Assembly (NCBI RefSeq): GCF_000337215.1
Contig: NZ_AOHZ01000043.1
Span: 11,377-73,190, forward strand
Length of the DNA stretch: 61,814 bases
Direction of reading: 5' to 3'
Source: Natronolimnohabitans innermongolicus JCM 12255
GTDB taxonomy: Archaea; Halobacteriota; Halobacteria; Halobacteriales; Natrialbaceae
The translations under genes and the position numbers were made by a program. Position 1 is the stretch's first letter. Each line of letters starts with the position of its first letter. This document shows positions 25,633-38,469 of this stretch, piece after piece. The notes beneath the pieces were generated by a model. It was not told the DNA's origin and did no database searches. It worked only from the letters and a program-made list of their open reading frames with translations.

Positions 25633-25705
25633 GTCCGGGTTGGGGTAGTGGTTATCCTTCAGCCTTGTGGAGGCTGAGACGCGGGTTCGATTCTCGCACC
25701 CGGAC
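25633..25705 (+). tRNA. tRNA-His (anticodon GTG)
   Basis: A 73-nt cloverleaf with encoded G-1 (25633) opposite C73 (25705), the identity feature of tRNA-His. Acceptor TCCGGGT/ACCCGGA, anticodon stem CAGCC/GGCTG with loop TTGTGGA (GTG), T arm GCGGG-TTCGATT-CTCGC. CCA is not encoded. Its 3' end is partly repeated 115 bp downstream. Confidence 0.95.
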
Positions 25706-25817
25706 TATTCTGCGACGAACGGACGTGAGGAGCGAATAGTCACGGGAGAGATCGAACCAGACGAGTCGCGCGCAGCGCCAGCGAGCACGTCTCGGCGTGG
25801 TTCGATTCTCGCACCCG
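25684..25817 (+). repeat. tRNA-His 3'-end duplication with hairpin element between
   Basis: The 19 bases at 25684-25702 (T arm and start of acceptor) recur exactly at 25799-25817. Between them are two inverted repeats. ACTATTC (25704-25710) pairs with GAATAGT (25734-25740). The second hairpin has outer stem GAACC (25754-25758)/GGTTC (25799-25803), inner stem AGACG/CGTCT and a one-sided bulge CGGCGT (25793-25798). The outer stem uses the GTTC of the repeated T loop. A weaker third match (TCTCGCACCCG) occurs near 25896. Confidence 0.75.
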
Positions 25818-25934
25818 TAGTTTTTGACCGTGATACCTCCTCGAGCAGCGCAACTCCGATACAAACAGAATCGCGTGAAACGATCACCGGCGAGTCTCGC
25901 ACCCGATTCCTCGACTCGCCACCGGGAAATCGCG

Positions 25935-28217
25935 TCACTCGAGCGTCGCGTAAATCGGCGAACTCCAGGCCATTTCGCCGTCGGTCTGTACAACCCGGAC
26001 GTAGTAGGCGTGGTCGCCGCTGTCGGTCGCAGAGAGATCGAACTCGAGGGTGACGTCACGCGCGGTCGCCTCGCCCACGCGGCGAATCGCCAGTTGCCGG
26101 TCGACGCCGCCCGCGTCGATAATCGTCTCGTCGCCGAGACTACCGAGTGCGACGGTCTCGCTGAGAAACGGAACACTGTAGGTGACTTTCGCATCCTCGG
26201 GAGCCTCGAGGGCGAGCCTGACGCCCTGGTAGTTACCCGAGATCGTGCTGTCCCACTCGAGCGTAGTAGCCGTCTGTCCGGTGAGTCCCTGTTCGGGGTG
26301 ATCGAAACCGAACGCGGTCGCGTCGACGATTCGACCTGCAGACAGCGAGAGGCCGCCGGAGGCGTCCTGTACCTTGTGGCGGTTCTTCGATCGCGCGCCG
26401 CTCCAGGTGAATTCCAGCAGGTGCTCGCCGTCGGTCAGGTCGGTTGTATCGACGCGTTCGGAGCCGTCGAAGAGGTTGACGCGTGCGATCGGGGCCGTCC
26501 CGTGTACCTCGACGCCGAACGAGAGCGCCGTCGTACCGGCGTCGATCGTCGTCGATTCGCCCATCGAGGCGTCCTCGAGGGCAGTTTCGAGGAGGATCCG
26601 TTCGCCCGTCGTGCCGTAGACCCGTCGTTCGGTCATAGCATCCCAGAGTTCGTCGCGGGAGAGATCAGAGAGCGACGCCGCCATCAGTCCGCCCGAGACG
26701 TTGAAGTCGGCCGCCTGCAGACTCGCCGTCTCGTCGACTTCGAAGTGGTTCGTCGGGCGAGCCGCACCCAGTCGGCCGGTGTGATCGTCGCTGCTGCAGA
26801 CGAAGCCAACCCGGTAGCCGCGCTCGATCGCTTCTTGGCCGAACCACTCGAAGACGCCCCAGATCGAGTTGATCTCGACGAGCGTCGTACGGTCGGCGTC
26901 GATCGCGTCTCGATCGGGATCGCGCAGTCGAGCGGGGCGGCCGCCCTGGTGCGGAACGATCAGGACGTCGTCGCGGCCCTCGTAGCGGTCGTAGAGGGCT
27001 TCGATAGGGTAGGTCCCCTCGTGTTTTCGAAAGCCGTCGCCGTCCTGCCAGCTACCGCTGGCGACGAGCGGTTCGTCGGTGTGGCGGTAGTAGACGTTGT
27101 GGTCGCCGCCGGAGACGGTGTTCGCCGACCACTCGTTGGCGAGCAGCGTGACGTGTTCGCCGGGCTCGTGGTAGCGCTCGACCGCGTCCTTGATCTCCCG
27201 CCAGTAGAATTCGTCGACCTGGAAATCGTTCGCGCAGTGCGAGGAAAAGTCGAGCAGCGCGTCCTCCCGCGCGAACCGGAAGTACTCGTCGATGCTTCCG
27301 GTGCCGACGGTCTTGCCGGACTGACCGTGAATGTCGCCCCAGTAGAGCCGCCGGCGCGCGTCGGGATCGCAGCGGACGGGATTCGACGTCGCTTCCCATC
27401 CCCTGTCCGGATCGGTAACGGTGACGCGGAAGATCCCCGGCGAATCGAACGCGACTGGTATACTCGAGACGGACTCGTCGACGTCGACCGGTGACGATAC
27501 CGTCGCGTCGACGCCGTCACCTCCGTCGTTGTCACCCTCGCGCTCGCCTGCGCCGGTGACCGAAACTTCGAGTCGCCCCTCGTACTCGCTTGCCGTGTTA
27601 CCGTAGTAATCGACGGCGCGGAGTCCGACGTCTATCGACTCGCCCGGGTCGGCGTCCGAGGGCGCACGCGCCTCGAGTGCGGTCGGATCGCCGGCGACGA
27701 CCTCGTAGTCGAGGGCCTCGAGCAGGAGGTAGTCTCCGGTCCCTTGCATGTCGACCTGAAAGAGGAAGTTGAACGCGGCTTCGGGAAACGACTGGATTCG
27801 GTGGCCCAGACTGCCGCCCGACGTGTCTCCGAACGTAATCGTGATCGTTTCCCCTTCGCCGAGGTAGCCGTCGTAGATATCGACGATCACGTTGTCGTTC
27901 CACGGGCGCGGGTTCTGATACCGCCGGTCGAACCGCCCCTCGACGATCGCGTCGCCGTCCGTCGCAACCGAACAGTAGTTCGCCGAGCGGGGGTCCTCGA
28001 ACTGCGGGCGTCCCCAATCGCTGGTCTGGTTGGTCGACACTTTGAGCTTCGCGCCGTCGTCGAGGCCGAACTGACCGACGGTGTACGTGATCGTCCACGT
28101 GCCGTACGTTCCCGCGGTGACCTCGTCGGCCGATATCGTCACGGTTCCGTAGTGGCGGTCGATCTCGGCTCTCTCCGGGTCTCGGTCGCCGAATACGTCC
28201 TGAATGTTTCCACTCAT
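25935..28217 (-). CDS. DUF3604 family protein (PHP-like putative metallohydrolase)
   Basis: About 760 residues. The N-terminal ~280 residues are beta-rich. The DUF3604 core starts near residue 290 with RLYWGDIHGQSGKT, where WGDIHGQS supplies metal ligands. DFSSHCANDF, IVPHQGGRPARL and VCSSDDHTGRLG complete the pattern of His/Asp residues typical of PHP-type hydrolases. The C-terminal ~200 residues are again beta-sandwich-like. No signal peptide is visible. Family activity is poorly characterised; substrate unknown. ATG 28217 chosen (MSGNIQDVFG), six codons inside the longest frame. Confidence 0.85.
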   Translation of the reverse strand: MSGNIQDVFGDRDPERAEIDRHYGTVTISADEVTAGTYGTWTITYTVGQFGLDDGAKLKVSTNQTSDWGRPQFEDPRSANYCSVATDGDAIVEGRFDRRYQNPRPWNDNVIVDIYDGYLGEGETITITFGDTSGGSLGHRIQSFPEAAFNFLFQVDMQGTGDYLLLEALDYEVVAGDPTALEARAPSDADPGESIDVGLRAVDYYGNTASEYEGRLEVSVTGAGEREGDNDGGDGVDATVSSPVDVDESVSSIPVAFDSPGIFRVTVTDPDRGWEATSNPVRCDPDARRRLYWGDIHGQSGKTVGTGSIDEYFRFAREDALLDFSSHCANDFQVDEFYWREIKDAVERYHEPGEHVTLLANEWSANTVSGGDHNVYYRHTDEPLVASGSWQDGDGFRKHEGTYPIEALYDRYEGRDDVLIVPHQGGRPARLRDPDRDAIDADRTTLVEINSIWGVFEWFGQEAIERGYRVGFVCSSDDHTGRLGAARPTNHFEVDETASLQAADFNVSGGLMAASLSDLSRDELWDAMTERRVYGTTGERILLETALEDASMGESTTIDAGTTALSFGVEVHGTAPIARVNLFDGSERVDTTDLTDGEHLLEFTWSGARSKNRHKVQDASGGLSLSAGRIVDATAFGFDHPEQGLTGQTATTLEWDSTISGNYQGVRLALEAPEDAKVTYSVPFLSETVALGSLGDETIIDAGGVDRQLAIRRVGEATARDVTLEFDLSATDSGDHAYYVRVVQTDGEMAWSSPIYATLE

Positions 28218-28480
28218 ACTCGGTAGATTCACCATTCACGGCCGGTGTGCCGCGTTCGTTCGACCGACGAACGCGAAGTTATAGCTTTTCGGCCACATTC
28301 GAACCGTTCGGACGCGACGAGAGACCGCTCGTCGAGACCGTCTCGGCACCCATCTCGTGATTCGACAGTCGAACGAGCGCGGATCGACCACCGCACGTCT
28401 CCGACAGCCGAGACTCGAGAACAGCGCCCGAACGGTCGACCGACCGCAGACTGAATACGGTCCCGTTCGTGGCTTCGAGT

Positions 28481-28648
28481 ATGGCAGCAGACGACGGCCC
28501 CTTCGACTGTGACTCCTGCGAGACCGCGGTCCCCCTCGACGACGCCCGACGAACGGAAACGATGGGCGGACTCGACGCGACGAAGTGGCAGACGCTGTGC
28601 TGTCCACACTGTGGCGCGCGGCTGAAAACGGTCTACGTTGGCGACTGA
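28481..28648 (+). CDS. small zinc-ribbon-like protein
   Basis: 55 residues. Two CxxC pairs, FDCDSCETAV near the start and LCCPHCGARLK near the end, would hold one zinc as in rubredoxin-like knuckles. Such 50-60-residue zinc proteins are numerous in haloarchaea. It lies alone between two minus-strand genes. Function unknown. Confidence 0.65.
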   Translation: MAADDGPFDCDSCETAVPLDDARRTETMGGLDATKWQTLCCPHCGARLKTVYVGD

Positions 28649-28707
28649 TGGCGTCGCTCGCCGCGTTGTGATCACCGTCGCGTCGTTCGATTGCCGCGTC
28701 GCCGCAG

Positions 28708-29568
28708 TCACCGCCCCGCGTCGGTAATCCGCTGAACCTCGTCGTCGTCCAGCGACAACTGCGACGCCGCGACGTTCGACTCGAGGTGGTCCGGATCCGA
28801 GGTTCCCGGAATCGGGAGGATCACGTCCGAGCGCTCGAGGAGCCAGGCCAGCGCGACCTGCCGTCGGCTCGCGTCGTGTTCGTCGCCGATTTCGTCTAAC
28901 AGGTCGCCGTGGGCGTCGACGTCGTCGCCGTTTATCGGCGCCCAGGGGATGAAGCCGATCCCATTTTCGGCACAGGCCTCGAGAACGTCCCGATTTTCCC
29001 GGTCGTCGACGTTGTAGCGGTTCTGGACGGTCGCGACGTCGACGTGTTCGCGGGCCGTCTCGAGTTGTTCGACGGAGACGTTACTGACGCCGACCTGATC
29101 GACGAGGCCGTCGTCCTGCAGTTCGGCGAACGTCTGGATCGAGTCCTCGAACGGCGTGTCGGGATCGGGGCGGTGGAACTGGTAGAGATCGATGGTCTCG
29201 GTCCGAAGGCGGTCGAGCGAGGCCAGCACCTGATTGCGGATGTAATCGGGGTCGCCGTGGGCGAGCCACTCCCCCTCCCGGTTGCGCAGGAGGCCGGCCT
29301 TGGTCGCGACCAGCACGTCGTCGCGGTCGCCGAGCGCCTCGCCGATCAGCCGTTCGCTGACGCCGGGCCCGTAGGAGTCAGCCGTATCGACGAAATCGAC
29401 GCCGAGTTCGACCGCATACTCGAGAACGTCGCGGGCGCGCGATTCGTCGTTCGGGGGACCGATGATCTCCTCGCCACAGAGACGCATCGCGCCGAACCCG
29501 AGCCGGTGGACGGTCGTATCGCCGATTTCGAACGTGTCGCTCTCGTTCGTCGGGGTATCGCTGCTCAC
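28708..29568 (-). CDS. aldo/keto reductase
   Basis: 286 residues from a GTG at 29568 (the ATG-led longer frame has no family match). The AKR tetrad is present: D and Y in FVDTADSYGPGVSE, K in VATKAGL, H in YQFHRPDPDTP. The NADPH-binding end is PIPGTSDPDHLESNVAA. NAD(P)H-dependent reduction of an aldehyde or ketone; substrate unknown. A second, distinct AKR is at 46311-47282. Confidence 0.9.
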   Translation of the reverse strand: MSSDTPTNESDTFEIGDTTVHRLGFGAMRLCGEEIIGPPNDESRARDVLEYAVELGVDFVDTADSYGPGVSERLIGEALGDRDDVLVATKAGLLRNREGEWLAHGDPDYIRNQVLASLDRLRTETIDLYQFHRPDPDTPFEDSIQTFAELQDDGLVDQVGVSNVSVEQLETAREHVDVATVQNRYNVDDRENRDVLEACAENGIGFIPWAPINGDDVDAHGDLLDEIGDEHDASRRQVALAWLLERSDVILPIPGTSDPDHLESNVAASQLSLDDDEVQRITDAGR

Positions 29569-29772
29569 GACCCACGTAACGGGGAACGCTCGGATAATCG
29601 TTGGGCGCTCACCCGCCGACAAGCGGCCCGGCGTCGGCAGTCACCGGCCGTCGGCAACCGCCTCGAGGTCGAGGGGCGTCGAAATCGTCGCTGCTATCGC
29701 CGTCCTCGAGACAGTCCGAAACCGTCTCGACGGGCTCGATTCCGCGTCCGACCGCGTCGACGGGACCAGAAA

Positions 29773-29815
29773 ACGGAGAGCGGGGAACGGGGAGCGGGAA
29801 GCGGGAAACGAGGGA
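29773..29815 (+). repeat. purine-rich imperfect tandem repeat
   Basis: The stretch repeats a GCGGGAA/GCGGGGAAC-like 7-8-base unit about six times, all purines except single C bases. It sits between the aldo/keto reductase and the secreted protein gene. Function unknown; it may be slippage-prone or able to adopt an unusual G-rich structure. Confidence 0.4.
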
Positions 29816-29829
29816 CTGCGGCCGAACGC

Positions 29830-30795
29830 TTACTGCGAGACGCGCCGGCGAAACGCGTACAGCCCGCCGACCGTCAGCCCGACGGCACCGACGCCCCCGG
29901 CGAAACCGGGACCGGGCATCTCCTCGGCCGAATCGCCCCCGTATGGGAGCGCCAACGTGCCGTCATCGGAGTGCAACGAGAGCAGGTACGACCCGTCGTC
30001 GTCGGCCTCGTAGAACTCGAGATCCCAGTCGTACCGGCCGTTCTCGAGATCGAGATCGAACTGCGAAAGGTCGATTACGAACTCATCGCCGGCGTTTTCC
30101 ACCGCGGTCTCGGCCAGTTCGTCGCTCGGCCGGTCCCCGCGTTCGTAAATGGACCACTCGACGGAGAGGTCGTCCGGCGTCCCCGGATCGCGAGCGATTC
30201 GGAGCGTCTCGTCGGACTGCTCGAGATCCCACTCGTATCGCGTCGCGACGCGGGTCGGCGGCGACTCGATCAGGGCGGACCCGTTCCCGTCGAGCAGCGC
30301 GACGCGGTAGTCGGCGAACGGTTCCCGATCGAAGATATCGAGGTCGCCGACGAACCGACCGTCGACGTAACTGAGACCGCCGGTCCCCTCGGCCGTCACC
30401 GACACCGAGACCGACTCGTCCATCGATTCCGTCGGATCGTACCCCGTCTCGAAGGAGATCGAACTGATTTCGTGCGTCGCGGAGTCGTCGTCGGGGACGA
30501 ACCGCAACTCGTCGTCGCTTCCCGCCCGCGTGATCCGGAATCGGTAGTCTGCATCCCCGCCGAACGGGACGGTACGGTCTCCTGCAAGCCCGTCGGCCGC
30601 CGTTAGCCGCGGCCGCAGGGACGAACTGGTGACGTTCGGATCGCGAAACAGCGTCACCTGCCCCAGCGTCGAAATCTCGAGGGCGACCTCGTCGTCGAGT
30701 TCGGGGGCGGCCGTCGCCGTAGTCGCCCCCAGAACACCGGTCGCGACGGCGCCCGCAGCGGTGCCGAGAACGGATCGTCTCGTGGACGGCGGCAT
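29830..30795 (-). CDS. Tat-exported, PGF-CTERM-anchored surface protein
   Basis: 321 residues. The N-terminus STRRSVLGTAAGAVATGVLGATTATAA is a twin-arginine (Tat) signal peptide. A ~250-residue beta-rich acidic domain follows. The C-terminus has PGPGF, a hydrophobic helix (AGGVGAVGLTVGGLYAF) and the basic end RRRVSQ, the tripartite PGF-CTERM signal that archaeosortase A processes for lipid anchoring. Binding function unknown. An AT-rich TATA-like stretch (ATAGTAAATAG) lies ~25 bases upstream of the start. Confidence 0.82.
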   Translation of the reverse strand: MPPSTRRSVLGTAAGAVATGVLGATTATAAPELDDEVALEISTLGQVTLFRDPNVTSSSLRPRLTAADGLAGDRTVPFGGDADYRFRITRAGSDDELRFVPDDDSATHEISSISFETGYDPTESMDESVSVSVTAEGTGGLSYVDGRFVGDLDIFDREPFADYRVALLDGNGSALIESPPTRVATRYEWDLEQSDETLRIARDPGTPDDLSVEWSIYERGDRPSDELAETAVENAGDEFVIDLSQFDLDLENGRYDWDLEFYEADDDGSYLLSLHSDDGTLALPYGGDSAEEMPGPGFAGGVGAVGLTVGGLYAFRRRVSQ

Positions 30796-31133
30796 TCGGT
30801 TAACCGAACCAATCTCAATAGTAAATAGCTATTGACTTCTCGACACCATGGCGACGGAAGCGACCGTCTGAAACGTGTCACCGACACCGAAGCGGGTCGA
30901 TGTCACGGCTTAAGGTGCCCCCGTTCAGTGAGTGCTCCCCGACCGAACCGTATCCACTTCGTTCGCGGAGTCGGTCACGAGAGACGCGTCGCCTTCCGGA
31001 TGTGAACCGAAGAACAACGTCACCCCGCTTGCGAGCGTTGTTCGGCGTCCAGTCCCGGTGAACCGACCGCCTCACGAAGCGTTCAATTCCGGTTCGGAGC
31101 AAGACCTATTCACGTTCCTCCCCAGGTCTTCGC
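30796..31133. other. intergenic region without a gene
   Basis: 338 bases between divergently transcribed genes. It contains the AT-rich promoter of the PGF-CTERM gene at ~30810-30830. I see no ORF with haloarchaeal protein character and no RNA gene. Confidence 0.6.
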
Positions 31134-31820
31134 ATGGTTCGAAACGCCACTATCGTCGCGGGCGTGGCCGGGGGCGCGCTGGCGGCCACGGGTATCTGGA
31201 GCCTCTACCAACGGTACACGACCGAAACCGTCCCCTACACCGTCGTCGCTCACGCCGATGACGTCGAACTTCGACGCTACCCCGAACAGGTCCTCGTCGA
31301 GACGTTCGCCCCCTCGAAGAACACGGCGTTCGGTCGGCTGTTCCGGTATCTCAGCGGTGCGAACGACGGCGGTGAGGAACTCTCGATGACCGCCCCAGTC
31401 GAGGTGGACGACCCCGGAACGTCGATCGAAATGACTGCACCCGTCGAACTCGAGCGCATCGGGCGGGCGACTCCGATGACTGCACCCGTCGAGCCCGACC
31501 GGAGCCGCGGTGCTGACGAGGTCCGGATGGCGTTCTACCTCCCTCCGGAGTACGACGCGGAATCGGCACCACGACCCGCAGCCGACGACGTGAGGATTCT
31601 CGAAGTACCCGAGCGAACGCTCGCCGTCAGGCGGTTTACGTGGCGGCCTACGGACGCCCGCATTGCTCGCGAAACCGAGGCGTTGCTGGAGACGCTCGAG
31701 ACGGCCGGCGTCTCCCTCGCCGGCGAGCCGTTCTTCATGGGGTATGACGCCCCCTGGACGCTGCCGTTCCTCCGACGAAACGAAATCGCGGTAGAAGTCG
31801 AAGCAAACACCGGGTCCTGA
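31134..31820 (+). CDS. SOUL-family haem-binding protein
   Basis: 228 residues. An N-terminal hydrophobic segment (5-24) could anchor it. The SOUL/HBP domain follows: YTVVAHADDVELRRYPEQVLVET, then repeated MTAPVE motifs, MAFYLPPEY, TLAVRRFTWRPTDARI and PFFMGYDAPWTLPFLRRNEIAVEV. The MTAPVE unit occurs three times (about 85, 99 and 115), where many family members have two. SOUL proteins bind haem or tetrapyrroles; the role in archaea is unclear. Confidence 0.9.
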   Translation: MVRNATIVAGVAGGALAATGIWSLYQRYTTETVPYTVVAHADDVELRRYPEQVLVETFAPSKNTAFGRLFRYLSGANDGGEELSMTAPVEVDDPGTSIEMTAPVELERIGRATPMTAPVEPDRSRGADEVRMAFYLPPEYDAESAPRPAADDVRILEVPERTLAVRRFTWRPTDARIARETEALLETLETAGVSLAGEPFFMGYDAPWTLPFLRRNEIAVEVEANTGS

Positions 31821-31922
31821 TCGATTACTGGCATTTTTGTCAGTGGAGCTACTGCTCATCGAGAGATGTGTCGGATTCTGATAGCACACTCGCCGTGCTC
31901 GGTCGTGATTCCCAGTGGAAAC
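31821..31922. other. non-coding spacer before the tRNA-Phe tail array
   Basis: About 100 bases after the SOUL gene with no gene visible; the tRNA-derived repeats begin at 31923. Confidence 0.5.
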
Positions 31923-32442
31923 GCCGTCTCTCGGATTGTGAACGACGCCTGAGAACCTGCTCGCTTCGCTCGCAGAACCTCAGTCTCGTTCACGTCCGAT
32001 CAGAATGCATTCTGACCGCTCACGAAAGTGTTCGCGGTAAGAAGTGCTCCCTCCCGAATTTGAACCACGCGAACCCCTCGCTCAGTGTTCTCTACTTCAG
32101 ATCCGGTCGTTGACAGTTTTGTGGCCGACAACGCGAACGAGCGACGCGAGTGAGCTGTCAGCCACAGAAACATGGCGTCTCCCGGATTATGAACTACGCC
32201 GAGACGCTCCGCTCGCTTCGCTTGCGGCTGCGACTCGTCTAGTTCAAAATCCGCTCGGTTCTCATTTCTGCTGCTCGTGGTGTTGCTCGCAGCAGAAATG
32301 CCGCCTCCCGGATTTGAACTTCCGAAAGACTCGCTGGCGCTCGTCTTTCGACTTCCCGCTCGCTTCGCTCGCAGGAACGGGGACAGCTCGATCTTCAGTC
32401 GAGTCCGATGACTTCTCGAGTGAGAATCGCGTAAAATCGGGA
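31923..32442 (-). repeat. array of five tRNA-Phe 3'-end units (with the gene itself) separated by hairpins
   Basis: Read on the minus strand downstream of tRNA-Phe, copies of its 3' terminus occur at 32298-32319 (22 bases exact), 32172-32194, 32045-32065 and 31923-31943, the last three degenerate. Counting the real end at 32444, the steps are 144, 126, 128 and 123 bp. The nearest copy also includes 27 exact bases of the anticodon and variable region (32378-32404), split from its 3' part by a ~58-base insertion at the T-loop GTTC. Hairpins lie between copies, for example 12-bp arms at 32263-32274/32289-32300. Confidence 0.8.
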
Positions 32443-32516
32443 TGCCGCCTCCCGGATTTGAACCGGGGACAGCTCGATCTTCAGTCGAGTGCTCTCCCAG
32501 TCTGAGCTAAGGCGGC
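32443..32516 (-). tRNA. tRNA-Phe (anticodon GAA)
   Basis: A 74-nt cloverleaf on the minus strand. Acceptor GCCGCCT/AGGCGGC, anticodon stem CTCGA/TCGAG with loop CTGAAGA (GAA), T arm CCCGG-TTCAAAT-CCGGG. CCA is not encoded. Its 3' end is followed by four decayed copies of itself. Confidence 0.96.
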
Positions 32517-32536
32517 GCATCTCTAACTCCGTGCAT

Positions 32537-32549
32537 GGTATAAAAAAGG
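32537..32549 (-). promoter_or_regulatory. TATA box of tRNA-Phe
   Basis: CTTTTTTATACC on the minus strand lies about 21-33 bases upstream of the tRNA 5' end, the expected archaeal box A position. Confidence 0.5.
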
Positions 32550-32740
32550 ATTTCGAATCGGATCCAGTGTGTGAATCGACCGTGTAGAATCCTCGTTCGT
32601 GAGTAATTCACAGCCGTTAGGAAAACACATCGAGTAGTAACGTCGCATATACGAGCGAGTGTATCGATGATTGCCGCGCGTGTGTTGGATTTTCAGATAT
32701 TCAAGACACCCTTTTCCGGGCTGGCGAGTAACATCGTGTT

Positions 32741-33187
32741 ATGGAAGCCCTTACCTCGAGTCAGGACGGTACCGAGCTCTCGGCAGACACTATTCTGGAG
32801 CTGTTGGCCAACCGCCGACGACGGTACCTCCTCTACGCGCTGCGCGGGCACGAGGACCCGATCGAACTCTCGACGCTCGCCGAACAGGTCGCCGGCTGGG
32901 AGCACGACGTGCCACCAGAGGAGGTCGCGAAAAACGAATACAAGAGCGTCTACGTCTCCTCCGTGCAGTGTCACGTGCCGAAGCTGGCCGACGCGGGCGT
33001 CGTCGACCACGACGAAGACAACCACACCGTCGTCCTCGGCAGTAATTTCGACCAACTCGAGCCCTACCTCCGGGTCGTCGTCAAAGACGAACCCGAGAAC
33101 TCGACGCTTCACGCCGCCCTCGAGCGGGAGTCCGGCGACGGCCTGCTGGGGCGCGTCCGGGAGAACGTGGCGCGACTCAAACACTGA
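32741..33187 (+). CDS. winged-helix domain protein (DUF7344-like)
   Basis: 148 residues. The core SADTILELLANRRRRYLLYALRGHEDPIELSTLAEQVAGWE is the start of the haloarchaeal winged-helix family (DUF7344 by memory). SVYVSSVQCHVPKLADAGVVDHDEDNHTVVLG forms the recognition helix and wing. These are putative DNA-binding regulators, very numerous in haloarchaea. No partner gene is adjacent. Target unknown. Confidence 0.85.
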   Translation: MEALTSSQDGTELSADTILELLANRRRRYLLYALRGHEDPIELSTLAEQVAGWEHDVPPEEVAKNEYKSVYVSSVQCHVPKLADAGVVDHDEDNHTVVLGSNFDQLEPYLRVVVKDEPENSTLHAALERESGDGLLGRVRENVARLKH

Positions 33188-33797
33188 GTCGACGCCCGGC
33201 GCACAGGACGACGACCGCGACTGATTCGGCTCGAGGGATGGGAGTCGGTCGCGACTGCGGATACTCCCGCGGATTCGGTTTTCGGTAGACCCGGAGCAGA
33301 CCAGCAGGATTCGCGGCTTCGGTACGCTGAGACGGTTTCCTGTCCGTCAGGTCCGGCGCACCCGCGACCCGGGCGGCGGGTGCGCCGGGACATCCGTACG
33401 ACAATCCGTATAAAACGGAGCAGGCCGACGTAGCGAGACGGCATTGACGGGTTTCGGGTGCGTCCGAACGAACGGCCACTCGGGCGTCGAGAGAACCGAT
33501 ACCGGAGACCGGGAACGGAGTGTCTGCGCTCGGTGGCACCGTAGCGTCGAATTACTCCCCACCTACGATACCAGTAATAGCCATTTGGAACAATTAGTTA
33601 CCACCTGAGTGACTGTTTCACTACATCGAATCCTCCAGCAGCGGGTTACCTCGACTGACAGAAGACAGAGAGCACGGTATCCGAGGGTAAACGGACCAGT
33701 GAAGCGGATTCGAGCGGCGTAGCGAACGTCGGAACGGACTCCGTACCGATCTGTCGCTGCCAGTATCTTCATGAGAGGGTTCGAAATAGCCTCGCCA
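33188..33797. other. intergenic region with palindromic element
   Basis: About 610 bases without a convincing gene. It contains copy 1 of the 82-bp palindromic repeat (33330-33411) and AT-rich stretches at ~33550-33640 that may hold promoters for the following gene. Confidence 0.55.
33330..33411 (+). repeat. 82-bp palindromic repeat element, copy 1
   Basis: The centre is an inverted repeat with arms CCGGCGCACCCGC and GCGGGTGCGCCGG around GACCCGGGCG. The ends are imperfect inverted repeats (AGACGGTTTCCTGT at the left, ATACGGATTGTCGT read inward from the right). Copy 2, also 82 bp, is at 49566-49647. The arms differ by one matched pair (CACCC/GGGTG here, CAACC/GGTTG there). Confidence 0.75.
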
Positions 33798-34694
33798 ATG
33801 AGCCGAGCACCGAGCACACTGGATCTCGTCGGGCGCGCCGTCGCAACCGTTCGATCCGACGGACTCGCCAAGGTGATCCGTCGAAGTATCCCGGTAGTCG
33901 ACCGACGGCGCAAGCGACTCGTTCGACGAGCGCTGGCTCGCGCGGGCGGCGTCTCCGCCGGTCGGCGCTATCTACACCTTCGTCGGCAGGTCAGGCCGGC
34001 GACGGTCACCGACGCGGATCCGTTCGTCCGACACTGGATCGATCCGTCGCGGATCGAGCGCCAGGTCCGCGGCGCCTCGAAGCGATGGGGGCGCGTCGAG
34101 GACGGCGCGTGGGATCAGGCGACCGTGCCGTTCGACGAGACGCCGGCCTCCGAGAGCGTCGTCGCACACTTCGAACGGGGCGTCCCCTGGACCGACACCG
34201 TGGAGTTCGAGGCGTATCTCGAGCGCCTCGAGGCCGGCGAACAGCCGAAGGGCTGTACCACCGTCGAAGAACTCGAGGCACGCTTCGAAGCCTTCGATAC
34301 GATCTACGAACGGATCGAACGCGACGGCTACCGGTCGCAGCCGGAGCTGTGGAACGAACGGCCGGCGTACCAACGAGAGATCTTCTACAAGTGGGACCGC
34401 TCGCTCGATCCGCGACTCGACGAGATCACCGTTAGTATCGGCCGCGACGGCGCGCTGTTACACAGCGACCGCGGCGACCATCGGTTGGCGATCGCGAAAC
34501 TGCTCGACCTGGAGGCGATTCCCGTGCTGGTGCGACGACGACACGCGCAGTGGCAGTCGGTTCGCGACGAACTGTCGGCGGCAACTGAGCGCGCCGAGCT
34601 GACAGAACGGAGTAAACAGCACCTCGAGCATCCCGACGTTCGCGACCTACACGCGTTCGACGCGTCGACGGACGGAACCGGAACGCCTCTCTGA
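33798..34694 (+). CDS. ParB-like domain protein, paralogue 1
   Basis: 298 residues from ATG 33798 (an ATG at 33771 adds nine residues). N-terminal ~60 residues are very basic (RRSIPVVDRRRKRLVRRAL). The C-terminal half has IYERIERDGYRSQPEL, then DEITVSIGRDGALLHSDRGDHRLAIAKLLDLEAIPVLVRRRHAQW, a ParB/Srx-like nucleotide-binding pattern (HRLAIAKLL). Homologues occur in haloarchaeal surface-glycan gene clusters. It converges on a paralogue (34745-35536), and an ABC exporter follows. Activity unknown. Confidence 0.75.
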   Translation: MSRAPSTLDLVGRAVATVRSDGLAKVIRRSIPVVDRRRKRLVRRALARAGGVSAGRRYLHLRRQVRPATVTDADPFVRHWIDPSRIERQVRGASKRWGRVEDGAWDQATVPFDETPASESVVAHFERGVPWTDTVEFEAYLERLEAGEQPKGCTTVEELEARFEAFDTIYERIERDGYRSQPELWNERPAYQREIFYKWDRSLDPRLDEITVSIGRDGALLHSDRGDHRLAIAKLLDLEAIPVLVRRRHAQWQSVRDELSAATERAELTERSKQHLEHPDVRDLHAFDASTDGTGTPL

Positions 34695-34744
34695 ACATCG
34701 GACTCGTAGCGCGGTTGGACGGCCAGATACGTCGGTTCCACCCG

Positions 34745-35536
34745 TTAGCTGGTCAGATCCCGGAGATCCGGATGGTCAACGACGGATGTCGCTCGAGCGC
34801 AGCGGTCGCGGTGGCGCATCCACTCGCGGTGGCGAACGAGGACGCCGACCGGCACCGTCTCGAGCCCGAGTAGTTTAGCGATCGCGAGCCGGTGGCGGCC
34901 GTTGACGAACAGGAGTTCGCCGTCGCGCCCGATGTCGACGAGGATCTCTTCGGTCACGCCGAGTACGGAGCCGTATCCGAGCGCCCGCTGGGATCGGTAG
35001 CCGTTGCGTTCGATCCGCTCGTAGAGTTCGTCGATCCGGTCGCACCGCTCCAGAATGGCTTCCTGACTCGTGAGACTCCGCCACGACGGTTCCCCGTCCT
35101 CGGCCAGCTCGAGACACCGCCGAACGAACGGCGTTTCGGGCCACGCGACGCCGTCCTCGAAGCGCATCCGCATGGACTCGAAGAAGACGCTCTCAGAGAA
35201 GCGATCGGCCCGGTAGAGCTCGTACCGATGGCGGTAGTCCTCGTCGATGATCGTGACGTCGTCGGTCCGGTCCCAGTCGCCGCCGCGAACCGTGCCGAGC
35301 TGCGCTGCCTTCTCGTGATACGGCGGATACGCTCGCCCGGTAAACGACTGCACGTCGCTCGGATCGATCGAACGCGTCGCAAACGGATCCGGGGGGTGAT
35401 CGAACGGAGCGAAGTCGTCCGCCGTCGTCCGCCGGATGTACGCGTTCTTGACGGCCGTCGGAATCTCGAGCGGGAGTTCGGCGTAAACTCGCTCGAGGGT
35501 CCGAAACGGCGCCGACGACTGGTCTGCCAGGGACAT
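34745..35536 (-). CDS. ParB-like domain protein, paralogue 2
   Basis: 263 residues from ATG 35536. It shares with paralogue 1 the segments LYERIERNGYRSQ, EILVDIGRDGELLFVNGRHRLAIAKLLGLETVPVGVLVRHREW and the end HPDLRDL. The N-terminal half is different and acidic, with SIDPSDVQSFTGRAYPPYHEKAAQLGTVRGGDWDRT. The two genes face each other with 50 bp between their stops. Probably a diverged duplicate; function unknown but likely tied to the adjacent exporter locus. Confidence 0.75.
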   Translation of the reverse strand: MSLADQSSAPFRTLERVYAELPLEIPTAVKNAYIRRTTADDFAPFDHPPDPFATRSIDPSDVQSFTGRAYPPYHEKAAQLGTVRGGDWDRTDDVTIIDEDYRHRYELYRADRFSESVFFESMRMRFEDGVAWPETPFVRRCLELAEDGEPSWRSLTSQEAILERCDRIDELYERIERNGYRSQRALGYGSVLGVTEEILVDIGRDGELLFVNGRHRLAIAKLLGLETVPVGVLVRHREWMRHRDRCARATSVVDHPDLRDLTS

Positions 35537-35681
35537 ATCGAACGACGGGCTAAGGAACGCCAAAAAGTTCCAGAACCGTTCACGGTCGCTAACCGTGGAC
35601 TACCACTTCTCACTGATAGTCATCAATCGGATAACGTTCCCATAACAATACCGTTCGGTCTTCTCATACGGAGTACGCTCA

Positions 35682-37469
35682 ATGTCTACCGAGGATCTCA
35701 CCCGCCGCGAAAAGTTACGGGGGCTGTATCTGGTGGCGACCTACCGGCCAGCACTGACGGTTTCGCTCATCCTGTTCAGCGGACTCGTCGCGCTGCTCGA
35801 GGGGATCGGCGTGAGCTTCATCGTTCCGATCATCGAGATCGCCCAGGGATCGGCCGAAACAGCGGGCGACGACGAGATGGTCGGCGCCTTCGTGACCGCC
35901 TTCGAGACGGCCGGCATTCCGTTCACGCTCGGCTACATCATCCTCGCGGTCGGCGCAATCCTGACGGTCCGGTACGTCGCAGCGTTCGCCGTCGGCTGGA
36001 TGCGCGTCTGGCTTCGCACGCACTACGTCCGGGACCTCCAGTCGCGTGCGTTCGAGAACGCACTCAACGCCCGCGTCGCCTACTTCGATAAGGAGGGCTC
36101 CGACGACGTCCTCAACGCCATCGTTACCCAGGCGGAGTACGCCGGAAAGGTGATCCGGGACTTCGTTCGCTTCTTCGAGCAGGTCCTCTTGATCGGGATG
36201 TACCTTGCGATCGCGTTCTATATCTCCCCGCTGATGACAGTCGTCGCCGGCGTCGCGATCGCCGCCATCACGTTCTTCATCCGGAACGTCCTCGAGAGCG
36301 GCTACGACGTCGGCGATCAGGTCGCCGACGCGAACGAGGGGATCCAGCAGAACGTTCAAACGGGGACCCAGGGGATCCGCGACGTCAAACTCATCGGGAT
36401 GACCGACGAGCTTTACGACAAATTCTCGACGCACCTCGATCGCTTCACCAATTCCTCGATCACGCTCGGCCGCAACGAGGCCGCGATCGGCTGTGCGTAC
36501 AACCTCTCCATCGCGCTGCTCGTCTTCGGATTGATCTACGTCTCGATCACGTTCGCGGACATGTCCCTGGGCGCGCTGGCCGCGTTCCTCTTCATCATGT
36601 TCCAGCTCGGTCCGCGCGTTAGCAACGCCAACGAGTACTTCTACAAGGTCGAGGGCCGCCTCCCGCACCTGGTTCGTACCCAGCAGTTCATCGAGGAACT
36701 CGAGGCGAGCAGCGACTTCGAGGGCGGCGACCGATCCGTTCCGGAGCCGCCGACGCCGATCGAGTTCGACGACGTTTCCTTCTCCTACGAGGAGGACGAA
36801 CAGGTCCTCGAGAACGTCTCCTTTACCGTCGACAACGGCGAGTTCGTCGCGTTCGTCGGCCAATCGGGCGAAGGGAAGTCGACGATCGCAGCGCTGCTCG
36901 CGCGTCTCTACGAACCCGACGACGGGGCGATCACCGCCGACGGCGTCCCGATCGACGAGTTCGACACCGCCGACTGGCGCGACCGCATCGCGTTCGTCCG
37001 CCAGGACCCCTACATCTTCAACAAGACGCTCCTCGAGAACGTCACCGCCGGCAACGACGACGCCACCCGTACGGCGGTCGAGGAGGCCTGCGAGATCGCG
37101 CAGGTGACCGAGTTCCTCGACGAACTCCCCGAAGGCTACGACACCGAACTGGGCGACAACGGCGTCCGCCTCTCCGGTGGGCAACGCCAGCGCGTCGCCC
37201 TCGCCCGCGCCCTCCTCGAGGACGCCGACATCCTCGTCCTGGACGAGGCGACCAGCGACCTCGACGCCAACATCGAACGCCGCGTCCAGGAGGGCATCGA
37301 GGAGATGTCCCAGGAGTACACGATCCTCGCGATCGCCCATCGGCTGTCGACCGTCCGCGAGGCCGACCAGATCTACGCCCTCGAGAACGGAACGATCGCC
37401 GAACGCGGCGAACACGGCCAGTTGCTCGAGAAAGAGGGCGCCTACGCGAACCTCTACGCCTCGCAGTGA
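35682..37469 (+). CDS. ABC exporter, fused permease-ATPase (MsbA-like)
   Basis: 595 residues. Six TM helices occupy residues ~20-320 and the nucleotide-binding domain ~360-595. Walker A is GQSGEGKST, the signature LSGGQRQR, Walker B ILVLDEAT, and the H-loop is in AIAHRLS. Half-size exporter, works as a dimer; substrates of relatives are lipids, glycolipids or peptides. It follows the ParB-like gene (divergent, 145 bp) and a second exporter of the same type lies 1.6 kb downstream. Export of a glycan-linked lipid is possible but unproven. Confidence 0.92.
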   Translation: MSTEDLTRREKLRGLYLVATYRPALTVSLILFSGLVALLEGIGVSFIVPIIEIAQGSAETAGDDEMVGAFVTAFETAGIPFTLGYIILAVGAILTVRYVAAFAVGWMRVWLRTHYVRDLQSRAFENALNARVAYFDKEGSDDVLNAIVTQAEYAGKVIRDFVRFFEQVLLIGMYLAIAFYISPLMTVVAGVAIAAITFFIRNVLESGYDVGDQVADANEGIQQNVQTGTQGIRDVKLIGMTDELYDKFSTHLDRFTNSSITLGRNEAAIGCAYNLSIALLVFGLIYVSITFADMSLGALAAFLFIMFQLGPRVSNANEYFYKVEGRLPHLVRTQQFIEELEASSDFEGGDRSVPEPPTPIEFDDVSFSYEEDEQVLENVSFTVDNGEFVAFVGQSGEGKSTIAALLARLYEPDDGAITADGVPIDEFDTADWRDRIAFVRQDPYIFNKTLLENVTAGNDDATRTAVEEACEIAQVTEFLDELPEGYDTELGDNGVRLSGGQRQRVALARALLEDADILVLDEATSDLDANIERRVQEGIEEMSQEYTILAIAHRLSTVREADQIYALENGTIAERGEHGQLLEKEGAYANLYASQ

Positions 37470-37773
37470 GCCTGTGAGTCGAGATCCGATACCAGTCGAG
37501 CGGGTCTCTATATCGCACCCGGCTGACTCGAGTGGGTCTCGATTCCAGCCCAGCCTGCTTTTCGTGGTGGTTTGACGGTAGAACGTGGGCTCGAGGGGGT
37601 GGGCGTGTGGGCCCACTTTCTGCAGCCTCAACGCGCACGAGGAATTGTATCGGTTCGCGGATAGTTGACTGTCAATTGAGCACCACCATCTACGATCACG
37701 AATCACTCGAAATACCCAATGAGGACTCTCCTATCGTCAGCCACTTGTTTATCAATTCTGTTGGTGTGCGTGT
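37470..37773. other. intergenic region without a gene
   Basis: 304 bases. A TATA-like TTGTTTATCAA at ~37746-37756 is the likely promoter of the small zinc protein gene that follows; nothing else recognised. Confidence 0.5.
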
Positions 37774-37971
37774 ATGCCAGATTACCGATACACCGAAGTT
37801 GTCTTCTGCAAATCTTGCGGCTACGTCTCGTCGCGGGACCCGCAGTTCAAGGGCTTCATGGACCGTATCGACACCGATATCCTCACGGCCGAGTGCGAGG
37901 AGTGCGGCGAGGTCAACTGGGGGAAGCGCCACGAGCAGGATGCTCATCTCCGGGATCAGCGCCACCCCTAA
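37774..37971 (+). CDS. small zinc-finger protein
   Basis: 65 residues with VFCKSCGYVSSRD and ECEECGEVNWGKRHEQDAH. Two CxxC pairs form a probable zinc knuckle and the end is His-rich (HEQDAHLRDQRHP). It belongs to the large set of haloarchaeal micro-proteins with zinc ribbons. ATG 37774 lies ~20-25 bases after a TATA-like element, suggesting leaderless expression. Function unknown. Confidence 0.75.
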   Translation: MPDYRYTEVVFCKSCGYVSSRDPQFKGFMDRIDTDILTAECEECGEVNWGKRHEQDAHLRDQRHP

Positions 37972-37973
37972 CC

Positions 37974-38042
37974 ATGACCGACGGCGAAATCACTGAACGG
38001 TTCGGGAAACTCGAGCGTCTCTCTGTCTCGAAATCGGAGTGA
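37974..38042 (+). CDS. possible 22-residue microprotein
   Basis: An ATG two bases after the stop of the zinc protein opens a 22-codon frame (MTDGEITERFGKLERLSVSKSE) with halophile-like acidic composition. Only position and composition support it; it may be chance. Confidence 0.25.
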   Translation: MTDGEITERFGKLERLSVSKSE

Positions 38043-38195
38043 CGGCAGACGAAAGGCGATAGCGATGTCAGGTGAGTTCGCTATCAGCAGTCGTGATAGT
38101 CGCGGTCGAATGGGCTCTCGCAGAACGACAATCGGCGACTTCGTCCGAGTCGCCGTGTTATCGCTATGCACAGTCCGTCTGCGGTAACCGTCTCG

Positions 38196-38395
38196 TCGGT
38201 TCTTTTGAAGACAAAACTGTGGGCTCGAGCGGGTTCGAACCGAAATCAGACGTGCTCGCTACGCTGCGCGCGACTGATAGGGTTCGAACCGCCCTCGTTC
38301 CACGTACCTGCTGCTCGCGAGTTTGCTCACAGCTAAGCGGAGCGAAGCTCCGCGAGGTCCAAAAGAGCGCTTCGGCTCTTTTGAAGACAGAAATA
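38196..38395 (-). repeat. tRNA-Val 3'-end duplication with hairpin elements
   Basis: Downstream of tRNA-Val on the minus strand, 46 bases spanning the tRNA 3' end and its flank (38372-38417) recur at 38196-38241, with an exact 12-base block from the flank (TCTTTTGAAGAC). A partial copy sits at 38281-38297. Between copies a hairpin has outer stem GAACC (38237-38241)/GGTTC (38281-38285) and inner stem ATCAG/CTGAT. Two further hairpins lie near the tRNA: 9-bp arms CAAAAGAGC/GCTCTTTTG, and GCGGAGC/GCTCCGC. Confidence 0.75.
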
Positions 38396-38469
38396 TGGGC
38401 TCGGGCGGGTTCGAACCACCGACCTCGGCCTTGTAAAGGCCGCGTCATGACCAGCTAGACCACGAGCCC
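38396..38469 (-). tRNA. tRNA-Val (anticodon TAC)
   Basis: A 74-nt cloverleaf on the minus strand. Acceptor GGGCTCG/CGAGCCC, anticodon stem CGGCC/GGCCG with loop TTTACAA (TAC), T arm GGTGG-TTCGAAC-CCGCC. CCA is not encoded. Confidence 0.95.

Follow-up and report, generated by a model that had tools for sequence, protein, structure and literature searches.

The DNA analysed here, hereafter the window, is a 61,814-nucleotide stretch (contig C43, positions 11377-73190) of the 4.59-Mb haloarchaeal draft genome of Natronolimnohabitans innermongolicus JCM 12255. The genes for tRNA-His, tRNA-Phe and tRNA-Val in this window are followed by short structured units, roughly 95-160 bp in size, which are non-coding and have no room for a gene. 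On balance, we favour the interpretation that these units are tRNA-specific integrative mobile elements with a central hairpin, H2, shaped like the attC site of an integron. The data point to mobile DNA units, which appear to enter at tRNA genes and to exit cleanly, rather than to a fixed RNA. The units are not described in the literature that we searched, which comprised open-access papers only. Their nearest known relatives are tRNA T-loop integration, integron attC sites and the small mobile repeats (SMRs) of Haloquadratum (PMC3119063).

In the window genome the tails of all tRNA genes were read, and many different tRNAs proved to be followed by one common layout. A first hairpin, H1, directly follows the tRNA, with GAAC..GTGA or close variants flanking its loop. 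It is followed by an inverted arm of about 10-12 nt taken from the T-loop side of the host tRNA, a core hairpin, and a direct copy of the same tRNA that runs from G53 to base 73 (21 nt). We use H2 for the covarying hairpin composed of the inverted T-loop arm, the core and the T-loop arm; pairing between the inverted arm and the copy spans roughly T-loop positions 53-62 and weakens further on. The H1 spacer is 30-59 nt long, mostly 34-48 nt, and tandem units recur with a period of mostly 94-160 bp, often near 120 bp.

The direct copy is specific to the tRNA that it follows. A tRNA gene's own G53-73 block was found at most 350 nt downstream in 24 of 45 tRNA genes of the window genome and in 20 of 45 of a congener. 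Blocks of other tRNAs were found in the same tails in 0 of 1304 comparisons in the window genome and 2 of 1348 in the congener; own-tRNA copies exceed chance. When gene and copy are compared in 121 tRNAs, their identity is about 0.25-0.3 before the block, 0.73 at the base just preceding it and 0.95-1.0 from G53, with a drop past base 73; the high identity within the block is partly by construction because the search required GTTC and at least 17 of 20 matches there, while the two edges are unaffected. The direct repeat thus delimited, from T-loop to tRNA 3' end, is the one that tRNA T-loop integrative elements require.

To describe the family we built a covariance model, R1, from 28 units; the training rows included the His unit, the Val unit and both stronger Phe units of the window. 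The window features, with R1 scores where a unit matched, are as follows.

25633..25706, plus strand: tRNA-His(gtg), host of one unit (ARAGORN call; Rfam match 25634-25705)
25705..25739, plus strand: H1 hairpin directly 3' of tRNA-His (CTATTC..GAATAG with GAAC..GTGA)
25745..25809, plus strand: tRNA-His H2 unit (inverted T-loop arm 25748-25758, core 25759-25798, then T-loop; 74.1 bits)
25800..25817, plus strand: direct copy of the tRNA-His 3' end, starting at G53, with its final bases diverged
32443..32516, minus strand: tRNA-Phe(gaa), host of a four-unit array (ARAGORN and Rfam)
32299..32404, minus strand: Phe unit 1 (tRNA 3' half from the anticodon stem, 32378-32404; T-loop to 3' end, 32299-32319)
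32320-32378, minus strand: interruption of Phe unit 1, two hairpins within the T-stem
32265..32298, minus strand: H1-type hairpin after Phe copy 1
32173..32254, minus strand: Phe unit 2, H2 (inverted arm 32241-32252, core 32196-32240, 3'-end copy 32173-32194; R1 match 32185-32254, 60.8 bits)
32045..32107, minus strand: Phe unit 3, a weak, short H2 (3'-end copy 32045-32065; R1 match 32056-32107, 25.0 bits)
31923..32000, minus strand: Phe unit 4, H2 of the GAGGTTCTGC class (inverted arm 31987-31993, core 31945-31986, 3'-end copy 31923-31943; R1 match 31934-32000, 52.5 bits)
38396..38469, minus strand: tRNA-Val(tac), host of one unit (ARAGORN and Rfam)
38294..38395, minus strand: Val tail, an enlarged H1 region with several nested hairpins
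38231..38294, minus strand: tRNA-Val H2 unit (inverted arm 38281-38293, core 38242-38280; 74.2 bits)
38220..38240, minus strand: direct copy of tRNA-Val from G53 to the 3' end

A preliminary description of the window had proposed that a hairpin element with a covarying stem is shared by the tails of these three tRNA genes. ARAGORN and Rfam agree on the three genes and their places, and the sequence details read as described: the His outer stem is GAACC at 25754 and GGTTC at 25799, the minus-strand Phe stems are GAACT/AGTTC (32191/32245) and GAACG/CGTTC (31940/31991), the inner stem AGACG/CGTCT and the bulge CGGCGT are common to His and a Phe unit, and the His and Val loops are near-identical. 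The element is a structured family far broader than was claimed. An Rfam scan of the window returned tRNAs only, with no known RNA family reaching the gathering score for the units. Phe unit 1 is unlike the others, as it contains a longer tRNA 3' half (from the anticodon arm onward) and its T-stem is split by two unrelated hairpins, an arrangement that could reflect an insertion of a second type.

When the window genome and 20 relatives were scanned with R1, 19 of the 21 had matches, from 5 to 36 copies per genome. Across a sample of the phylum, matches were obtained in 50 of 53 Halobacteriales genomes and in 0 of 242 other genomes. In an independent exact-pattern scan of about 85,000 species genomes, the matches listed were by title all haloarchaeal but for one metagenome-assembled genome, labelled Bacteroidetes bacterium QS_9_68_14; its locus (L250) scores 76 bits with R1, and the contig is probably a misbinned haloarchaeal one. 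The preliminary description had suggested asking whether matches cluster 3' of tRNA genes, and across Halobacteriales they do: almost all lie 3' of a tRNA gene on its own strand, mostly at a distance of 35-48 nt. ARAGORN places a same-strand tRNA directly upstream of 75 of 81 R1 loci (a printed count of 37 covers plus-strand matches, the others being read from tRNA positions), and most of the remaining 6 show an intron-bearing or remnant tRNA. In the set found by pattern, 72 of 82 loci have a same-strand tRNA within 1 kb, compared with 13% for random positions in the same loci; the remaining 10 mostly contain tRNA pieces. Two plasmid matches likewise lie behind tRNA genes. On the Haloarcula halophila plasmid NZ_CP119561.1 (L080, 847-5662), 23 tRNA genes lie near genes for a TROVE-domain (Ro60-like) protein and a type B DNA polymerase, and one H2 unit follows tRNA-Asn. 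A genome-wide spread of the GAGCGAAGCGAGC loop was also considered and rejected, as it showed no enrichment over a backward-read control (23 versus 47).

Mobility of the units is well supported by comparison of filled and empty sites. Unit number differs at many tRNA tails between the window genome and its congener when all tails are compared. Exact filled/empty pairs between congeners were found at Leu(cag), where the unit accounts for 126 bp and the flank (91% identity) resumes directly after the tRNA, and at Leu(caa), where it accounts for 94 bp. Thirty genomes of the family were examined at the tRNA-Leu(cag)-rpl18e locus, and 28 were placed on a tree. Nine of the 28 are filled, which requires 8 changes on the tree with no clustering, and three genera (g1, g5 and g23) hold both states. 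The unit is the same tRNA-specific one at every filled site; in most cases the flank (TCACTTCT or TCCACTTCT) begins directly after the tRNA or after the unit. Between genera, unit bodies are 0.79-0.98 identical and rpl18e third positions 0.63-0.83, the unit being higher in 35 of 36 pairs. Movement between species fits this pattern and the identity of the units best.

The strongest alternative is that the units are ancestral and have been lost and homogenised by ordinary recombination with no dedicated recombinase. The 21-bp repeats would allow exact deletion, unequal crossing-over would shift copy number, and incoming DNA would exchange units through tRNA homology. Trace-free, repeat-mediated deletion has been described in Haloquadratum (PMC3119063), copy number varies with some tandem units near-identical, and orthologous units exist, at Leu(tag) in different genera and at Val(tac) in congeners. 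However, this explanation does not account for tRNA-matched units behind so many tRNAs or for the sharp G53-73 edges, and it sits poorly with unit bodies that are more alike between genera than silent sites are, even though absence is common. We regard it as unlikely. A nearest-neighbour test on the units gave the same tRNA in 19% of cases versus 4.5% expected and the same genome in 17% versus 8.5%, indicating mixed inheritance.

The stem was said to covary, and covariation is strong in two larger alignments. In A2 (133 distinct rows), 92.0% of cells are paired versus 80.5% after shuffling, both sides change in 273 cells versus 66, and the covariation score is 0.339 versus 0.155; in A3, the pattern-found set, the score is 0.304 versus 0.133. 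In neither alignment does any of 500 shuffles reach the observed score, although both alignments are fitted to the model and hold a few antisense matches of the palindrome, and relatedness inflates shuffle tests. Most of the signal disappears when the pairing partners are slid by one column. The inner stem does not derive from the tRNA and occurs in the matched forms CCAG/CTGG, CGAG/CTCG, GAAG/CTTC, GCAG/CTGC, TCAG/CTGA and CCCG/CGGG; the signal is thus not confined to the tRNA arm. The apical part of the core is conserved while the inner stem varies. Together with the clustering behind tRNAs, this covariation supports the earlier suggestion that the structure is kept by selection on it or by copying through it.

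Covarying stems raise the question of whether RNA or DNA is the folded molecule. If the hairpins were transcribed with the tRNA as a trailer, with a role in 3' processing, termination or as a small RNA, the covariation would reflect selection on RNA. The fixed strand and spacing relative to the tRNA agree with this, as do the covarying stems and the somewhat greater number of wobble pairs on the tRNA strand (54 G.T versus 27 A.C cells in the outer stem, a modest signal). On the other hand, presence or absence of a unit at the same tRNA differs between congeners, so no tRNA seems to need one, and each unit carries a target-derived direct repeat that a trailer does not need. The loops are GNA triloops and almost never GNRA: among the predicted apical loops of 197 cores, 136 are GNA triloops and 1 is GNRA, as folded with RNA parameters, which were used because the default DNA set, under which the cores fold differently, has no bonus for the GNA loop. 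GNA loops closed by two G-C pairs form exceptionally stable DNA mini-hairpins (PMC4686876). The predicted triloops hint at folded DNA, and the gain or loss of the unit as DNA is a second hint in that direction. The complementary strand would carry TNC loops, and thus the tRNA-sense strand would be the one that folds. Taken together, we consider an RNA trailer improbable. The scarcity of wobble intermediates in the inner stem had been considered as proof of DNA copying and was dropped, since tRNA acceptor stems are not clearly different.

Larger inserts occur at the same sites. Behind tRNA-Val(gac) in one genome (L165, 2540-3992; G003:C17), a low-GC insert with an open reading frame (ORF) resembling Exo_endo_phos is followed by two H2 units. 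This ORF, of the endonuclease/exonuclease/phosphatase (EEP) nuclease type, has a Pfam score just below the cut-off and lies between the tRNA and H2; cargo in units is rare. At L282 (2918-5560), a tRNA-Tyr with two units is followed by a 2.3-kb insert containing an ORF that by eye resembles a histidine kinase. The insert ends in an exact copy (21/21) of tRNA-Tyr G53-73 without H2, which suggests that larger elements use the same tRNA site. That the units are scars of decayed viruses or plasmids once integrated at tRNA genes is very improbable: the Val(gac) and Tyr inserts do carry the same 3'-end repeat, and displaced tRNA 3' ends with H2 units lie directly downstream of integrase-like C-termini (read by eye) in L229 and L289, but decay at independent sites would not produce a single core family with a common H1-core layout and a gap of 35-48 nt at many different tRNAs across nearly all genera, and no virus or phage record searched holds a convincing copy of the core. 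The phage records gave chance-level matches only. IMG/VR gave no match to the long core pattern, 62 matches to the short T-loop pattern that we take as chance (8 were rechecked with R1 and none matched), and 3 contigs with the short core that had no R1 match.

For the tRNA-specific integrative elements that we favour, we propose the following route. An incoming unit would come to sit exactly behind a tRNA gene, bringing its own copy of that tRNA from G53 to base 73. As the unit carries this block, insertion at the T-loop would restore an intact tRNA and shift the old 3' end downstream. This insertion step rests on the repeat boundaries, the exact empty sites and the scattered presence at one locus. 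The arrays observed may have arisen by repeated insertion or by unequal recombination. H2, to judge by its layout, is most likely the folded single-strand form of a recombination site. The cut would presumably be made at G53, the copy edge G53/T54 being where an attC-like G|TT cut would fall. The likeliest candidate for the enzyme is a tyrosine recombinase of the host or the element, acting in trans; co-occurrence of units and tyrosine recombinases was uninformative.

Several observations weigh against this proposal. The integron integrase model TIGR02249 scored over its cut-off in 0 of the 21 genomes, and genomes that lack units have generic integrases too. The strand that appears to fold is the tRNA-sense one, which is the opposite of attC, and the strand signal is modest. 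The outer box of the unit is GTTC (GTTC-RAA, with the C after GTT invariant in alignment A1) and not the GTTRRRY/RYYYAAC of attC. Gains are unpolarised, so a number of the empty sites could have arisen by loss through the 21-bp repeat. The high identity between genera could stem from sequence constraint, and some units, as at Leu(tag), look vertically kept across genera.

Like H2, the integron attC site is an imperfect palindrome with outer and inner stems, an unpaired spacer and a variable end, and the R-spacer-L-variable-end fold with GTT/AAC at the inner edge of the outer box is present in the units (alignment A1, folds and pair counts). Integron cassettes also share fixed-site insertion and arrays with the units. 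They carry genes; the units are almost all non-coding, with an EEP-nuclease ORF ahead of H2 in one insert (L165). The target of the units is the tRNA T-loop. Given the different box, the lack of IntI in the 21 genomes and the non-coding units, the resemblance to attC is likeness and not membership. Integrons are known from bacteria and archaeal metagenome-assembled genomes (PMC9668308), and attC structure has been reviewed (PMC8946536).

Units and the tRNA T-loop integrative elements of tyrosine recombinases have in common the repeat from T-loop to 3' end, the restored intact tRNA and exact empty sites. A T-loop sublocation scheme describes such integration into tRNA genes. The units differ in their small size, the lack of an integrase and a conserved hairpin with an inverted T-loop arm; archaeal elements integrating at tRNA genes have been reviewed (PMC8371274). 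The SMRs and palindrome-associated transposable elements (PATEs) of Haloquadratum are, like the units, palindromic mobile elements of haloarchaea that are non-coding and lack a transposase, and the SMR-A families are about 110 bp with an unknown route of movement (PMC3119063). By description they are set apart from the units: neither kind duplicates its target, and the targets of SMRs are other mobile elements instead of tRNA genes. The 21-bp target-derived repeat speaks against identity with PATEs or IS200-IS605 derivatives, whose definition (PMC3119063) combines the absence of a target duplication with near-terminal palindromes that resemble IS605 ends. Arrays of clustered regularly interspaced short palindromic repeats (CRISPR) or of the casposon type resemble the units in having a target-derived direct repeat between inserts, but the units are one structured family, unlike the unrelated spacers of CRISPR arrays. 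The tRNA 3' end is a target of casposons too; insertion of the casposon or CRISPR type is carried out by a Cas1-type integrase.

A bolder proposal, which we put forward only tentatively, is that Halobacteriales possess an independent integron-like system. Its recombinase would act on a folded single-stranded DNA hairpin that uses the universal tRNA T-loop as outer box, every tRNA gene would be a potential attachment site, each non-coding cassette would carry the tRNA 3' end required for its host tRNA to stay functional, and cargo genes could occasionally be captured. If the units are mobile as we propose, an apparently undescribed non-coding element, matched one-to-one with tRNA genes, is present in most haloarchaeal genomes in several to tens of copies, which would explain the many partial tRNA repeats behind haloarchaeal tRNA genes. 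A second origin, in archaea, of the folded single-stranded DNA recombination known from integrons would also become testable. Under the plainer readings too, the arrays evolve fast and can serve as markers, and they probably give rise to mis-annotated tRNAs and to hot spots of integration.

One further repeat of the window genome does not resemble the H1-H2 units. At tRNA-Leu(gag) (L049), a tandem duplication of about 300 bp, absent from the congener, includes the tRNA 3' end together with the downstream flank.

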